From the NCBI RefSeq assembly GCF_037975445.1, contig NZ_CP150254.1, forward strand, positions 742,001 to 806,000: DNA of 64,000 nt, in the 5' to 3' direction. The notes below the pieces were generated by a model. That model saw only the letters and a program-made list of their open reading frames with translations, was not told the DNA's origin and did no database searches. Positions 5,453-35,139 of the stretch are shown here, in pieces; position 1 is the stretch's first letter, and every line of letters starts with the position of its first letter. This DNA is from Peribacillus sp. FSL P2-0133 (lineage in GTDB: Bacteria; Bacillota; Bacilli; Bacillales; DSM-1321). A program made the translations under genes and the position numbers.

Positions 5453-6343
5453 ATGCTGAAGAAAGTGGTTTTAGCTGGCGGGACTGGTTTTGTCGGTCAA
5501 TACTTTGAAAAGCATTTCAGGAATTTGGGATATGAGGTAAGGATCATCTCCAGGCAAACCCCGCATACTGGCTGGGAAGATAAAGAAGGAATAAGGGAAA
5601 CGATCGATAATTCGGATATGTTAATCAACTTAGCAGGAAAAACGGTCAATTGCCGCTACAATGCCAAGAATAAGAAAGAAATATTGGATTCACGAACTGA
5701 TACGACTGAAATGCTAGGTAAGGCGATTGAACAATGTGAAAATCCTCCTTCATTATGGATAAACTCAAGTACGGCAACGATTTACAGGCATGCTGAAGAT
5801 AAACCAATGACGGAGGGGGATGGTGTAATCGGTTCAGGTTTTTCTGTAGATGTTGCGAAAGCGTGGGAGCTCTCATTTTTCGATTTCCGATTACCCAAGA
5901 CGAGACAAATTGCTTTACGGATCGCCATTGTATTGGGCGATGGGGGAGTGATGACCCCATATAGGAATTTGGTTAAATTCGGACTGGGAGGCCATCAAGG
6001 ATCAGGAAATCAGAAATTCAGTTGGATACATATAGAAGATTTATTTAACATTGTCCTTTTTCTGAGAAAGAATCAAGAGTTGAGCGGGGTGTTCAATTGT
6101 TCATCGCCTCATCCAGTTACAAATCGTGAACTGATGGCTCATTTGAGAAAGCTCATGAATATTAGGATAGGATTTCCCTGTCCAACACCCATGCTTGAAA
6201 TGGGGGCTTTATTTATGGGGACCGAAACGGAATTGATATTAAAAAGCAGGTGGGTCATACCTGAGAGGCTGGAAAAGGCGGGGTATGTATTTAAATTCCA
6301 TCATCTTGATGAGGCTCTGGAACAGATACTGATGAATTCTTAA
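5453..6343 (+). CDS. TIGR01777-family NAD-dependent epimerase-like protein
   Basis: Protein of 296 residues in the extended SDR superfamily. The Rossmann motif GGTGFVG is at residues 9-15, INLAGKTVNCRY lies in the middle, and the C-terminal DUF1731-like half has GHQGSGNQKFSWIHIEDL. The reaction is unknown for this family. The start was set at ATG 5453, giving the usual MLKKVVLAGG beginning; a longer frame from 5411 adds 14 residues without a ribosome site. A Rex-type operator lies upstream, implying control by NADH/NAD balance, which suits a nucleotide-binding reductase. A second paralogue, yfhF, is at 34094. Confidence 0.82.
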   Translation: MLKKVVLAGGTGFVGQYFEKHFRNLGYEVRIISRQTPHTGWEDKEGIRETIDNSDMLINLAGKTVNCRYNAKNKKEILDSRTDTTEMLGKAIEQCENPPSLWINSSTATIYRHAEDKPMTEGDGVIGSGFSVDVAKAWELSFFDFRLPKTRQIALRIAIVLGDGGVMTPYRNLVKFGLGGHQGSGNQKFSWIHIEDLFNIVLFLRKNQELSGVFNCSSPHPVTNRELMAHLRKLMNIRIGFPCPTPMLEMGALFMGTETELILKSRWVIPERLEKAGYVFKFHHLDEALEQILMNS

Positions 6344-31637: not shown

Positions 31638-33218
31638 ATGTCAGTAACGATTAAAAATATCTTTGATCAGACGGTTCAGAAATTTCCCATTAAAGAAGCT
31701 ATATACGACGTGAGAAGAAATATCCGCTATACGTACATTCAATGGAATGAGCAGGTGAATAGGTTGGCGGCGGCCCTTCAAGCGGAAGGGGTGCGAAAAG
31801 GGGACAGGGTCTCTACGTACCTTTACAACAATGAAGAGCTTGCAACAGCATTCTTTGCCTGTGCAAAAATCGGTGCAATCTTTAACCCGATCAACTTCCG
31901 TTTAATGCCGGAAGAGTTGGCCTTCATCTTGAACGACGCTGCTCCAAAGATCGTTTTATTCGAACACGAATTGGAATCGAACGTTGCCGCGGTTGAAAAA
32001 CGATTTCCGACAACGGCTTTTTGGTATATAGATGATGATGTGCCTGGATATGCAAAAGGTTACCGCCAGAAAATGGCCAGTATTTCATCGAAGCCAGATG
32101 AAGTGGACGTTCACGAAGATGATGTCTATGCCATCATGTATACGAGCGGGACAACCGGACGCCCCAAAGGGGTCATTCACCTTCATAAAGACATGGTCAA
32201 ACAGGCCGAGATTTTAAAAGAGGCCATGAAGTATGAACGCTCTGATATCGGTTTGATCACTGCGCCGATGTTTCATTGTGCTGAATTGCACTGTTCCTTT
32301 TTACCTCGCATACAGGTCGGTGCCGCAAATGTCATATTACATCAGTTTAATCCCAAAAAGGTCATGGAACTGATTGAATCCGAAGGAGTCACCAAGTTTT
32401 TTGCTGCACCTACGATGTGGAACATGCTCATCCAGGAAAACTTGGATGAGTACAAATTCCAGAGTTTGAAGCTTGGGCTTTATGGAGCAGCCCCGATGGC
32501 TCCAACACTTGTACGTGCCTGTCAGGAAAAACTCGGCATCCAGTTCATCCAAGCTTATGGAATGACTGAAATGGGTCCCGCCATCACTCTCCTATTGGAG
32601 GAAGATCAAATTAGGAAAGCGGGTTCTGCCGGCAAGGCATGTTCCGATCATGAAATCATCATTGCCCGTCCGAATGACGAAGGGCCATCGGATCCCGAGG
32701 ATAGGATGGAACCTGGGGAAACAGGGGAAATCCTTGTGAAGGGTCCGTGTATCATGAAGGGTTACTTTCAAAAAGATAGAGAGACCGAAAAGGCGCTTTA
32801 CAAAGGCTGGTACCATTCCGGTGACATCGGTTTCCTGGATGAAGATGGATATCTGTGGGTCAAGGACCGGGTGGACGACATGATTATTTCTGGAGGGGAA
32901 AATATTTATCCACGTGAAGTGGAAGATACACTATATGAACACCAAGGAGTTCTCGACTGTGCAGTACTGGGTCAGCCGGATGAACAATGGGGGGAAATAG
33001 TGACGGCCTTCATCGTAGCCAAAGACCCTTCGCTAGCGGAAACAGATTTAGAAACCTGGTGTAAAAACAGTGTTACACTAGCGAACTATAAACGTCCAAG
33101 AAGATATATCTTCTGTAATGAGCTGCCCCGAAACGCAAGCGGGAAGATACAAAAATTCTTGCTTCGTAAACAGTTGGAAGATAATGTTGATGGTAAAAGT
33201 TTGGGGAACCTTCTTTAA
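31638..33218 (+). CDS. Acyl-CoA synthetase (AMP-forming, fatty-acid type)
   Basis: Adenylating enzyme of 526 residues that activates carboxylic acids to acyl-CoA. The AMP-binding motif YTSGTTGRPKGVIH (around 168-181), the AYGMTEMGP motif, GWYHSGDIG and the catalytic Lys near the C-terminus (PRNASGKIQKF) are all intact. Last gene of the MerR cluster, 132 bases after the thiolase. That gap contains no promoter I can call. GAGGAGGAAC precedes the ATG. Substrate could be long, medium or branched-chain acids. Confidence 0.87.
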   Translation: MSVTIKNIFDQTVQKFPIKEAIYDVRRNIRYTYIQWNEQVNRLAAALQAEGVRKGDRVSTYLYNNEELATAFFACAKIGAIFNPINFRLMPEELAFILNDAAPKIVLFEHELESNVAAVEKRFPTTAFWYIDDDVPGYAKGYRQKMASISSKPDEVDVHEDDVYAIMYTSGTTGRPKGVIHLHKDMVKQAEILKEAMKYERSDIGLITAPMFHCAELHCSFLPRIQVGAANVILHQFNPKKVMELIESEGVTKFFAAPTMWNMLIQENLDEYKFQSLKLGLYGAAPMAPTLVRACQEKLGIQFIQAYGMTEMGPAITLLLEEDQIRKAGSAGKACSDHEIIIARPNDEGPSDPEDRMEPGETGEILVKGPCIMKGYFQKDRETEKALYKGWYHSGDIGFLDEDGYLWVKDRVDDMIISGGENIYPREVEDTLYEHQGVLDCAVLGQPDEQWGEIVTAFIVAKDPSLAETDLETWCKNSVTLANYKRPRRYIFCNELPRNASGKIQKFLLRKQLEDNVDGKSLGNLL

Positions 33219-33392
33219 TGCCGGGGTCAGTAGCGGATAAAACCACTGACAAGTTAGGGTGGAAAAGCCATATAGTATTGCTTCGCATGCGATAATACTT
33301 GGAAGGAAGAAATTTAATAAAGACCGTAAAAGATATAGATGAACTATTATATAAATAATAATCCTGTGGAACAAATCAAGAAGAGAGAATAG

Positions 33393-33562
33393 TTATCCAC
33401 AACAAAAATGCAGCGTGATTAGCATAACATCCCTTTTATCCACATAATCCACAGGGTTATCCAGAAATAACATTATTTTCATGTTAATAAGGTGAGTTAT
33501 TGTACTTATAGTTTGTCAGTATTTTCAGAATATATCCACAATATACACAGGGTTGTGGATAA
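33393..33562. promoter_or_regulatory. DnaA-box cluster
   Basis: Three perfect DnaA boxes TTATCCACA occur within 170 bases: 33393-33401 (+), 33436-33444 (+), 33554-33562 (-). Three more have one mismatch: TAATCCACA 33445-33453, TTATCCAGA 33457-33465 and ATATCCACA 33532-33540. ATATACACA at 33541 has two mismatches. An A+T-rich stretch lies between the two groups. There is no dnaA or dnaN nearby, so this is not oriC. It resembles the extra-origin DnaA-binding clusters of B. subtilis, which titrate DnaA or link replication to gene expression. Confidence 0.82.
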
Positions 33563-33579
33563 GCTATGTAAATAAAGAA

Positions 33580-33608
33580 AACACAAGGGGCTGATTTACT
33601 CCCCCTTG
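33580..33608 (-). terminator. Possible terminator after yfhD
   Basis: The stem CAAGGGG/CCCCCTTG lies 20 bases past the yfhD stop; the following T-tract (TGTGTTTTC leftwards) is weak. Confidence 0.42.
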
Positions 33609-33627
33609 GTTTGGTTTATCCTGCTTA

Positions 33628-33810
33628 TTAACGGCGATTATGAGCACGGCGGTCAGCCGCATTGGCCCGGGCTTGTGCCTCGATGTCTTCCTGGTCAGCC
33701 AGTTCGGAAGAATATTCAACGTCAAGTCCGTCACTTTTCAGGTTTTTAGGAACCTGAGGAAGTTTTTGTTTGTTCTTATCTCGATTATGGTGTATGTTAT
33801 TTCGTCCCAT
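33628..33810 (-). CDS. yfhD: YfhD-family small protein
   Basis: Basic, hydrophilic protein of 60 residues beginning MGRNNIHHNRDKNKQKLPQ and ending ARANAADRRAHNRR, which I recognise as YfhD. Function unknown. Composition is like small spore-associated proteins. The start is ATG 33810 with AGGGGG nearby; the longer frame from 33894 runs back through the yfhE terminator and is not credible. It keeps the B. subtilis order yfhD-yfhE-yfhF. Confidence 0.9.
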   Translation of the reverse strand: MGRNNIHHNRDKNKQKLPQVPKNLKSDGLDVEYSSELADQEDIEAQARANAADRRAHNRR

Positions 33811-33827
33811 GTTAGCGCCCCCTAGAA

Positions 33828-33875
33828 TAAAAAATAAGCTGGAGATGAATTCACTAATCATCTCCAGCTTATTTT
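33828..33875 (-). terminator. Terminator between yfhE and yfhD
   Basis: The perfect 16-base stem AATAAGCTGGAGATGA / TCATCTCCAGCTTATT is followed leftwards by TTTTTTATTC. Confidence 0.9.
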
Positions 33876-33917
33876 GTGTTGAGTGGCTGTTCAAAATGTA
33901 CGGGAAAAAACTCCAAA

Positions 33918-34040
33918 CTAACGACGGGATTTCTTCTCGGTATATCCACCAGCTCGATCTGCTTTTTTAAATTCGCGAGCATAAAGAATCGCTTGGGTAC
34001 TAGTTAAGTTACTTTTCTCTTTATCGTGTTTTTTGAGCAA
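33918..34040 (-). CDS. yfhE: YfhE-family small protein
   Basis: Protein of 40 residues reading KEKSNLTSTQAILYAREFKK and ADRAGGYTEKKSRR, the recognisable YfhE pattern. The start is TTG at 34040 behind GGAGATGATCTAA. Function unknown. It sits between yfhD and yfhF as in B. subtilis and has its own strong terminator. Confidence 0.85.
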   Translation of the reverse strand: MLKKHDKEKSNLTSTQAILYAREFKKADRAGGYTEKKSRR

Positions 34041-34093
34041 TTAGATCATCTCCATTTCACTTAATATCCCTATTTTTTCCTAAAATGACCCTT

Positions 34094-35014
34094 TCATACG
34101 TGAGAATCTTCTTTTAAGATATTTTGTAAAGCTTCTTTAAGGGTTGGAAAGGAGAAGGTGAATCCTATCTCTTTAAGTTTAGTGGGAAGGACATTTTGTC
34201 CTTCAAGCACAAGTATGCTCATTTCCCCTAGCAGTTTCTTGAGGAAGAAGGGAGGTACGGGTAACCAATGGGGCCGGTGCAGGACAGCTCCTATCGTTTT
34301 CCCGAATGTATCCATTTGAACGGGGTTCGGTGCCGTAAAATTGACTGGACCTTCTATCCGTTGATCGTTCATGCAAAAGATGATTGCACGGACCACGTCA
34401 TGGATATGAATCCAGGAAAGCCACTGATTCCCTTTGCCCATCTTTCCACCGCCGAGAAGTTTATAAGGGAGAACCATCATTGGCAGTGCGCCGTCTTTTT
34501 CTCCCAGAATCACCCCGAATCTTGTTAGGACCAACCTTTTACTGTAAGAGCGTGATTTAGCCGCTTCCTTTTCCCATAGTTGAACAGTACGGGCCAAGAA
34601 ATCATCACCAATGGATTCAGAGGTTTCGGTAAAGGTCTCATCTTCCGAAGTACCATAATATCCGATTGCACTTGCATTAATAATGAAGGACACTTTATCG
34701 GGCAGTATGGAAATGATCCGGTTCATCTCTTTGGAGGCTTCGACCCTGCTCTCGACAATCCGGCGTTTTCGTTCAGGTGTCCAACGCCCGCTGTTCAGGG
34801 ATTCACCAGCAAGGTTTATGAAAGCATCAAGCCCCGCCAAGTGCTTTTCCGGCTTTGCGTCCTTGGTCAACCAGCCGATATATGTCAAATTAGTCTGTTT
34901 TTTAAATTTTTCGGGATGACGTGTCAAAATATATATATCATGATTTTCTTTTGATAATTCATCAATAAGGGCTGTGCCGACAAAACCGCTTCCACCAGCA
35001 ATGGCAATTTTCAT
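34094..35014 (-). CDS. yfhF: YfhF, TIGR01777-family epimerase-like protein
   Basis: Protein of 306 residues in the extended SDR group. The Rossmann GGSGFVG is at 7-13. FINLAGESLNSGRW, INASAIGYYG with the family Tyr, and GKGNQWLSWIHIHDVVRA follow. Reaction unknown. ATG 35014 was chosen to give MKIAIAGGSGFVG; the frame from 35074 adds 20 residues. Divergent from recX, as in B. subtilis. It is the conserved-position copy; the paralogue at 5453 is about 30 kb away and lacks the YYG active-site Tyr pattern (it reads STATIYRHAED). Confidence 0.87.
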   Translation of the reverse strand: MKIAIAGGSGFVGTALIDELSKENHDIYILTRHPEKFKKQTNLTYIGWLTKDAKPEKHLAGLDAFINLAGESLNSGRWTPERKRRIVESRVEASKEMNRIISILPDKVSFIINASAIGYYGTSEDETFTETSESIGDDFLARTVQLWEKEAAKSRSYSKRLVLTRFGVILGEKDGALPMMVLPYKLLGGGKMGKGNQWLSWIHIHDVVRAIIFCMNDQRIEGPVNFTAPNPVQMDTFGKTIGAVLHRPHWLPVPPFFLKKLLGEMSILVLEGQNVLPTKLKEIGFTFSFPTLKEALQNILKEDSHV

Positions 35015-35139
35015 GAAAACCACTTCCTTTCCCTTTCTTTCCTTCACTTTAACATGCCCATGTTCTTTTTTCATTTTTAGACATGCTATATATAGAAATG
35101 GTAAACGTAAAGGGGTAAAGTAGGGGTGGGGGTGGATTT

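Follow-up and report, generated by a model that had tools for sequence, protein, structure and literature searches.

We analysed a 64-kb window of the Peribacillus sp. FSL P2-0133 genome (C1:742001-806000; the genome is one contig that begins with dnaA), in which a cluster of DnaA boxes occupies the gap between two 3' ends, that of an acyl-CoA ligase gene on the plus strand and that of yfhD on the minus strand. The cluster lies ~775 kb from oriC, about 13% of the chromosome. The gap itself (33219-33627) shows no apparent gene, in agreement with the first-pass annotation of this DNA; minus-strand short ORFs of 71-98 aa (33073-33288 and 33078-33374) extend into it from the acyl-CoA ligase gene. 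The features of the locus, numbered from the first base of the window and given with mean column identity across 23 Peribacillus loci where available, are as follows.

31638..33218, plus strand: acyl-CoA ligase (AMP-binding), left convergent neighbour (ORF list, profile search)
33393..33562, no strand: DnaA-box cluster, whole element (box scan, genus alignment, spacing control)
33393..33401, plus strand: box A, perfect TTATCCACA; 99.5% identity
33436..33444, plus strand: box B, perfect TTATCCACA, abuts C; 100% identity
33445..33453, plus strand: box C, TAATCCACA, one mismatch; 96% identity
33457..33465, plus strand: box D, TTATCCAGA, one mismatch; 96% identity
33466..33485, no strand: non-box block 1 (AATAACATTATTTTCATGTT); 96% identity, matching the boxes in conservation within the genus
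33482..33490, minus strand: weak box, one mismatch to TTATNCACA (scan with TTATNCACA)
33514..33531, no strand: non-box block 2, around TATTTTCAGAAT; 94% identity
33532..33540, plus strand: box E, ATATCCACA, one mismatch; 100% identity
33541..33549, plus strand: box F, ATATACACA, one mismatch to TTATNCACA, abuts E; 92% identity
33554..33562, minus strand: box G, inverted perfect TTATCCACA, faces E-F; 100% identity
33567..33575, minus strand: weak box by TTATNCACA scan; several relatives (e.g. L016-L020) have a perfect TTATCCACA 13 bp after G
33585..33607, minus strand: hairpin-like stretch separating the cluster from yfhD, possibly the terminator of yfhD (read from the sequence; not called by a terminator scan)
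33628..33810, minus strand: yfhD (PF14151), right convergent neighbour (ORF list, profile search)
34094..35074, minus strand: yfhF (TIGR01777 oxidoreductase), syntenic marker (profile search)

A pattern scan recovered six TTATCCACA boxes within 33393-33562, three of them perfect and the other three with one mismatch, with a perfect box on the minus strand at the right end (33554-33562), much as the first-pass annotation had described. That description had put one base between the left pair of boxes, at 33436 and 33445, which in fact abut with 0 bases between them. It also lacked box F at 33541 (plus strand), which emerges once TTATCCACA is replaced as consensus by TTATNCACA, the form applied to B. 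subtilis DnaA boxes (PMC4447404). The A+T-rich stretch noted between the box groups corresponds to the D-E spacer (33466-33531), which is 77% A+T versus 58% for the window.

Taken over the whole window, one-mismatch boxes show no excess (27 versus 20.2 +/- 4.4 in shuffles, with 7 of 100 shuffles as high). Against the background of the rest of the window, 0.056 boxes would be expected per 170 bp, giving a probability of 4e-11 for at least six, or ~1.5e-8 after allowing for 376 windows. The genome-wide count that the annotation had recommended returned 90 perfect TTATCCACA sites in 5.81 Mb, versus 46 for the reversed pattern; perfect triples at such spacing are expected 0.00027 times in a genome of this size, and the crowding is far beyond chance. 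Crowding, and not overall box number, is the improbable feature of the 64-kb window. The array lies outside oriC with a density above chance and belongs by that measure among the extra-oriC DnaA-box clusters.

Within the genus, the cluster is present in 33 of 36 Peribacillus genomes, the source genome counted. We located 27 of these by DNA match and box check, three at the yfhF locus (L046, L047 and L049) and three with longer flanks (G024, G009 and G029). Its distance from yfhD is 8-10 kb in G009, G010 and G029, and about 1 kb in G024. Among the three genomes without the cluster, G016 retains two boxes, G027 has zero boxes within the flank examined, and an orthologous yfhF was not found in G002. 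All seven boxes A-G stand at identical offsets (0, 43, 52, 64, 139, 148 and 161; at most two mismatches) in 22 of the 33 loci, and at least six do so in 24; in L014 and L021 the D-E spacer is one base shorter. Mean column identity over 23 loci is 92-100% in the boxes, compared with 71% in the A-B spacer, 75% in the middle of the D-E spacer, 67% in the F-G gap, 84% in the C-D gap and 75-78% in the flanks. The two non-box blocks at the ends of the D-E spacer share TATTTTCA, and a second protein is one possible explanation for their conservation.

A direct DNA search of 25 genomes from other genera yielded no match better than E 0.0017, so any relation beyond the genus is hidden to DNA similarity alone. 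YfhF served as a syntenic anchor: it was found at E <= 1e-70 in 161 of 179 order-level genomes, and we took flanks from 100 of these, hand-picked for family spread and excluding Peribacillus. Each perfect TTATCCACA in a 250-bp stretch scored 2 and each copy with one mismatch scored 1, with a threshold of 6 chosen after the first results; families and genera were counted by taxonomy codes, and neighbour orientation came from a simple ORF finder (at least 80 aa). On the yfhD side of yfhF, 36 of the 100 genomes, from 19 of 42 families, carry a cluster at this threshold, and the counts at scores of 4, 5, 6 and 8 are 41, 41, 36 and 31. On the recX side, none of the 100 genomes reaches even a score of 4, and each of twelve permuted 9-mers used as controls gave 0 of 100. 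The yfhD-side comparison among relatives that the first-pass annotation had proposed thus finds the cluster kept by 33 of the 36 Peribacillus genomes and by members of 19 of the 42 families sampled outside the genus. With its density above background and its retention by relatives, an extra-oriC DnaA-box cluster, as originally put forward, is the best reading of the element.

The 36 loci outside the genus vary in their surroundings. Seventeen clusters lie within ~205 bp of a YfhD match, six at 0.8-1.9 kb, and 13 have no YfhD match in the stretch; neighbours are convergent at 19 loci, divergent at two, co-directional at ten and unresolved at five, and seven clusters share sequence with an ORF of 80 aa or more. 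Named carriers include Mesobacillus persicus (L169), where the cluster adjoins yfhD, and Terrihalobacillus insolitus (L164), where it precedes recX by 1.2 kb and neither yfhF nor yfhD was matched. A pattern scan of the contigs of named genomes, which provides organism names and no measure of frequency, returned 109 stretches (56 oriC-like, 15 yfh, 32 without a landmark and six near other query genes).

Presence and absence require 17 changes on the YfhF tree versus a shuffled mean of 29.5, and 0 of 500 shuffles were as low. By itself, the YfhF tree leaves gain and loss indistinguishable; its clustering together with the shared layout points to common descent with repeated loss. Given its occurrence in 19 of 42 sampled families, the cluster is far older than the genus. 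It is also often lost or moved, as seen from the 17 changes and from its absence in 64 of the 100 sampled genomes at a score of 6 (59 at a score of 4).

The layout recurs across families along with the location. Among the 36 extra-genus clusters, 32 contain a doublet of the B-C type, 24 a triad of the E-F-G type, and 20 both; a box stands 42, 43, 54 or 55 bp before the doublet in 27 and 21 or 22 bp after it in 15. To gauge chance, we redistributed the boxes of each stretch at random in 500 trials. The 9-bp doublet on either strand occurs in 35 of 36 clusters (random mean 3.9, maximum 11), a plus-strand box with a minus-strand box 22 bp on in 22 (mean 1.3, maximum 6), and the 42/43-bp pair in 26 (mean 6.2, maximum 13). 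Same-strand spacings peak at 9, 31, 43, 52 and 22. This recurrence suggests an ordered DnaA complex instead of a passive sink, which leaves the fixed spacing and the conserved non-box blocks unexplained.

We also searched the non-box blocks for an accessory motif. Block 1 was not found in the clusters of other families with up to two mismatches allowed, and near-copies of block 2 turn up in other families at five of the 36 loci searched; these 36 comprise 34 of the 36 clusters above (L197 and L205 omitted) plus L185 and L196. TATTTTCAKRA has 77 genome copies versus 37 for the reversed control, and the copy at 775520 is the sole one inside a listed box cluster of the source genome; the next-nearest copies miss the clusters at 5807 and 5777 kb by 0.9 and 1.6 kb. 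At up to one mismatch, ATTTTCAGAAT reaches 0.55 per kb in other families' clusters versus 0.03 outside, a figure drawn from only 5 of 36 loci with a motif chosen post hoc, and at two mismatches the arbitrary motif ATTTTGACAAT is more enriched (2.08 versus 0.65). On these grounds, we rejected the accessory-factor motif as weak.

The source genome has further clusters at tsaD/ydiF (ydiF was identified no further than as an ABC-F protein), yqeG, ywlC/spoIIR, rlmH, mnmE/jag and on both sides of dnaA. To match the rlmH cluster to its B. subtilis region, we took yydA to be rlmH. Of the eight strongest B. subtilis regions in Table 1 of PMC4447404, the seven compared in this way all have a counterpart among the source-genome clusters, the eighth being ywcI/vpr. 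The tsaD(gcp)/ydiF cluster (299.2 kb) likewise lies between two 3' ends, and its spacing (box, 54, doublet of 9, 22, box) is found in yfhD-side clusters of other families too; it differs from the yfhD-side cluster in its locus and in having no E-F-G triad. For the B. subtilis tsaD(gcp)/ydiF counterpart, PMC4447404 reports strong DnaA binding with a preference for ATP-DnaA. More broadly, the yfhD-side cluster resembles the B. subtilis extra-oriC clusters: several boxes crowd together where no gene lies, at a distance from oriC, and no unwinding element was found.

With a probability of roughly two in three, we read the element as an old extra-oriC cluster that would bind DnaA and draw it off from oriC. 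The boxes, their spacing, their conservation at one locus across families and their position between 3' ends are direct observations, and DnaA sequestration is the function most likely to go with them. DnaA would occupy the perfect boxes, and the weaker ones would be filled with help from their neighbours, boxes and DnaA together forming an ordered complex whose cooperativity we infer. At ~13% of the chromosome from oriC, the cluster would be copied early and doubled soon after initiation; the doubled cluster would then draw DnaA from oriC and help to prevent premature re-initiation. Such a curb is implied by B. subtilis, in which clusters of this sort bind DnaA and the deletion of six of them leads to early initiation (PMC5295017 and PMC13220808, citing Okumura 2012). 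The B. subtilis clusters are described as DnaA-sequestering in PMC11019786. Against this reading, ~10-fold overproduction of DnaA in that species is reported to cause no over-initiation (PMC13220808). The cross-family spacing makes it testable whether such clusters just soak up DnaA or build a specific complex, and many natural spacing variants exist for this question.

A structured element controlling the nucleotide state of DnaA, akin to datA or DARS, is unlikely, and the least so of the alternatives we weighed. In it, a fixed array would direct assembly of an oligomer that shifts DnaA between its ATP and ADP states, perhaps with an accessory protein on the non-box blocks. Base-exact spacing at 22 of the 33 genus loci, together with its recurrence across families far above random placement, is consistent with this. 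So is the presence in the D-E spacer of two non-box blocks conserved like boxes, although these blocks recur little beyond the genus. For the comparison with E. coli, we assume the positions of DARS1, DARS2 and datA. The E-F-G triad shares the topology of the DARS1/DARS2 core, two tandem boxes facing an inverted third; its spacings (+ 9 + 13 -) are off those of both DARS elements (+ 12 + 14 -) by 3 and 1 bp, and facing boxes 12 bp apart are present in the source rpmH-dnaA region too. datA likewise has mostly one-way boxes and a spacer between box groups. DARS releases ADP from DnaA, and datA combines an IHF site between its boxes with hydrolysis of DnaA-ATP; no IHF or Fis site is known at the yfhD-side cluster, for which either activity is hypothetical. 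IHF itself is reported absent from B. subtilis (PMC13220808). The C-E distances of other clusters (59, 68, 68, 76-81 in nine and 87-91 in eight) rise in steps of about ten. With one value per family, the window's value of 87 being added by hand to the family medians, a period of 10-10.5 bp reached p 0.05-0.09, and the fit improved at 11-13 bp. Helical phasing of this distance is suggestive only.

Quite unlikely, in our estimate, is a composite of these ideas: an ancestral Bacillales device for resetting DnaA activity, in which a datA-like one-way array would be joined to a DARS-core-like facing triad through a spacer varying in steps of about one turn, and which the B. subtilis lineage would have lost. 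If true, that loss would explain why no datA or DARS counterpart has been recognised there.

The cluster might instead control transcription, with DnaA acting from it as repressor or activator of an adjacent gene or of an RNA absent from the annotation. We consider this improbable. In B. subtilis, sda, ywlC and other genes are regulated by DnaA from such clusters according to PMC4447404, and a putative DoxX-family gene, judged by eye, starts beside the cluster in some relatives. The sda-like role that the first-pass annotation had entertained is nonetheless not favoured, because the cluster sits between two 3' ends, and a promoter is unlikely as the conserved function since neighbours are mostly convergent elsewhere as well (19 of 36 loci, versus two divergent). 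Promoter-like sites are at chance (4 versus 3.3 +/- 1.7), and an Rfam search of 32900-34100 gave no match above gathering score. Two microRNA-family matches in that search, both far below gathering score, were rejected as evidence of an RNA gene.

A secondary or fossil replication origin is very improbable. DnaA boxes accompany an A+T-rich stretch here as they would in an origin, and the B-C doublet resembles the TTATTCACATTATCCAGA doublet of the source dnaA-dnaN region, where a box likewise stands 40 bp upstream of an abutting doublet; in the Kurthia huakuii (L149) dnaA-dnaN region, the distance is 43 bp. The source oriC, however, lies at dnaA and has a DnaA-trio with a run of 6, and the yfhD-side cluster has neither: its longest run is 2 (shuffle mean 2.2), it lies in an acyl-CoA ligase/yfhD context rather than at dnaA-dnaN, and a normal oriC is present where the genome begins. 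That no DnaA-trio was found itself speaks against a second origin. Least credible of all is that the boxes lack function and persist through inheritance of intergenic DNA that evolves slowly: close members of the genus are 82-92% identical throughout the stretch, but in distant members spacers and flanks have diverged around unchanged boxes, and other families keep the spacing despite dissimilar spacers, which contradicts the idea at family level.

We asked whether the locus is new relative to B. subtilis. A survey of 397 order genomes contained five, all of one genus, with YfhH 77-93% identical to PDB 1sf9, which we take to be B. subtilis YfhH; on that assumption, the five are presumably Bacillus sensu stricto. 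All five have yfhD-yfhF-recX-yfhH, but no box cluster was found in the 11 kb examined. The yfhD-side cluster is retained by G117 and G197, two genomes that share their family code and belong to a different genus. Table 1 of PMC4447404, with the 20 strongest DnaA regions of B. subtilis, names no yfh gene. The yfhD-side cluster is not orthologous to B. subtilis regions as far as these 20 rows (of 269 regions) and the nearest genomes (0 of 5) extend, and the earlier suggestion of a new cluster locus is supported because no yfh region is in Table 1 and five of five nearest genomes are without the cluster. A search of titles and abstracts, with most subscription papers outside its reach, found no yfhD-side cluster in print. 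The element is a real, old DnaA-box cluster of unusually regular build, absent from the published lists compared. The B. subtilis list of DnaA-box clusters is the Gram-positive model. With a cluster that 19 of the 42 sampled families carry and the five genomes nearest B. subtilis lack, that model may give an incomplete picture.

Several other observations emerged from these scans. A second, weaker YfhD-family match lies at C1:2326427-2326564 (31 bits versus 106). Downstream of hflX, seven TTATNCACA boxes on one strand form a cluster (C1:195032-195115; L031, ~1981-2186) that is outside Table 1 of PMC4447404. Six boxes, two of them perfect, occupy the gap between a squalene-hopene cyclase gene and a TPR protein gene (C1:5412236-5412261; L035, ~1996-2171), which corresponds to no listed B. 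subtilis region. At a thioredoxin-reductase-like gene (C1:5340182-5340537; L034, 2183-2538), four perfect boxes fall in ~360 bp, from 2446 on inside the next ORF. Box-pattern matches at ywlC/spoIIR, a known B. subtilis cluster site, in Pseudalkalibacillus (L099 and L128) suggest that this cluster is old too. Finally, Cytobacillus horneckiae (L127, 5429-5733) has eleven boxes in 300 bp; a nearby gene first labelled yumC lost that label, its product being only 26% identical to the thioredoxin-reductase-like protein of the source genome.
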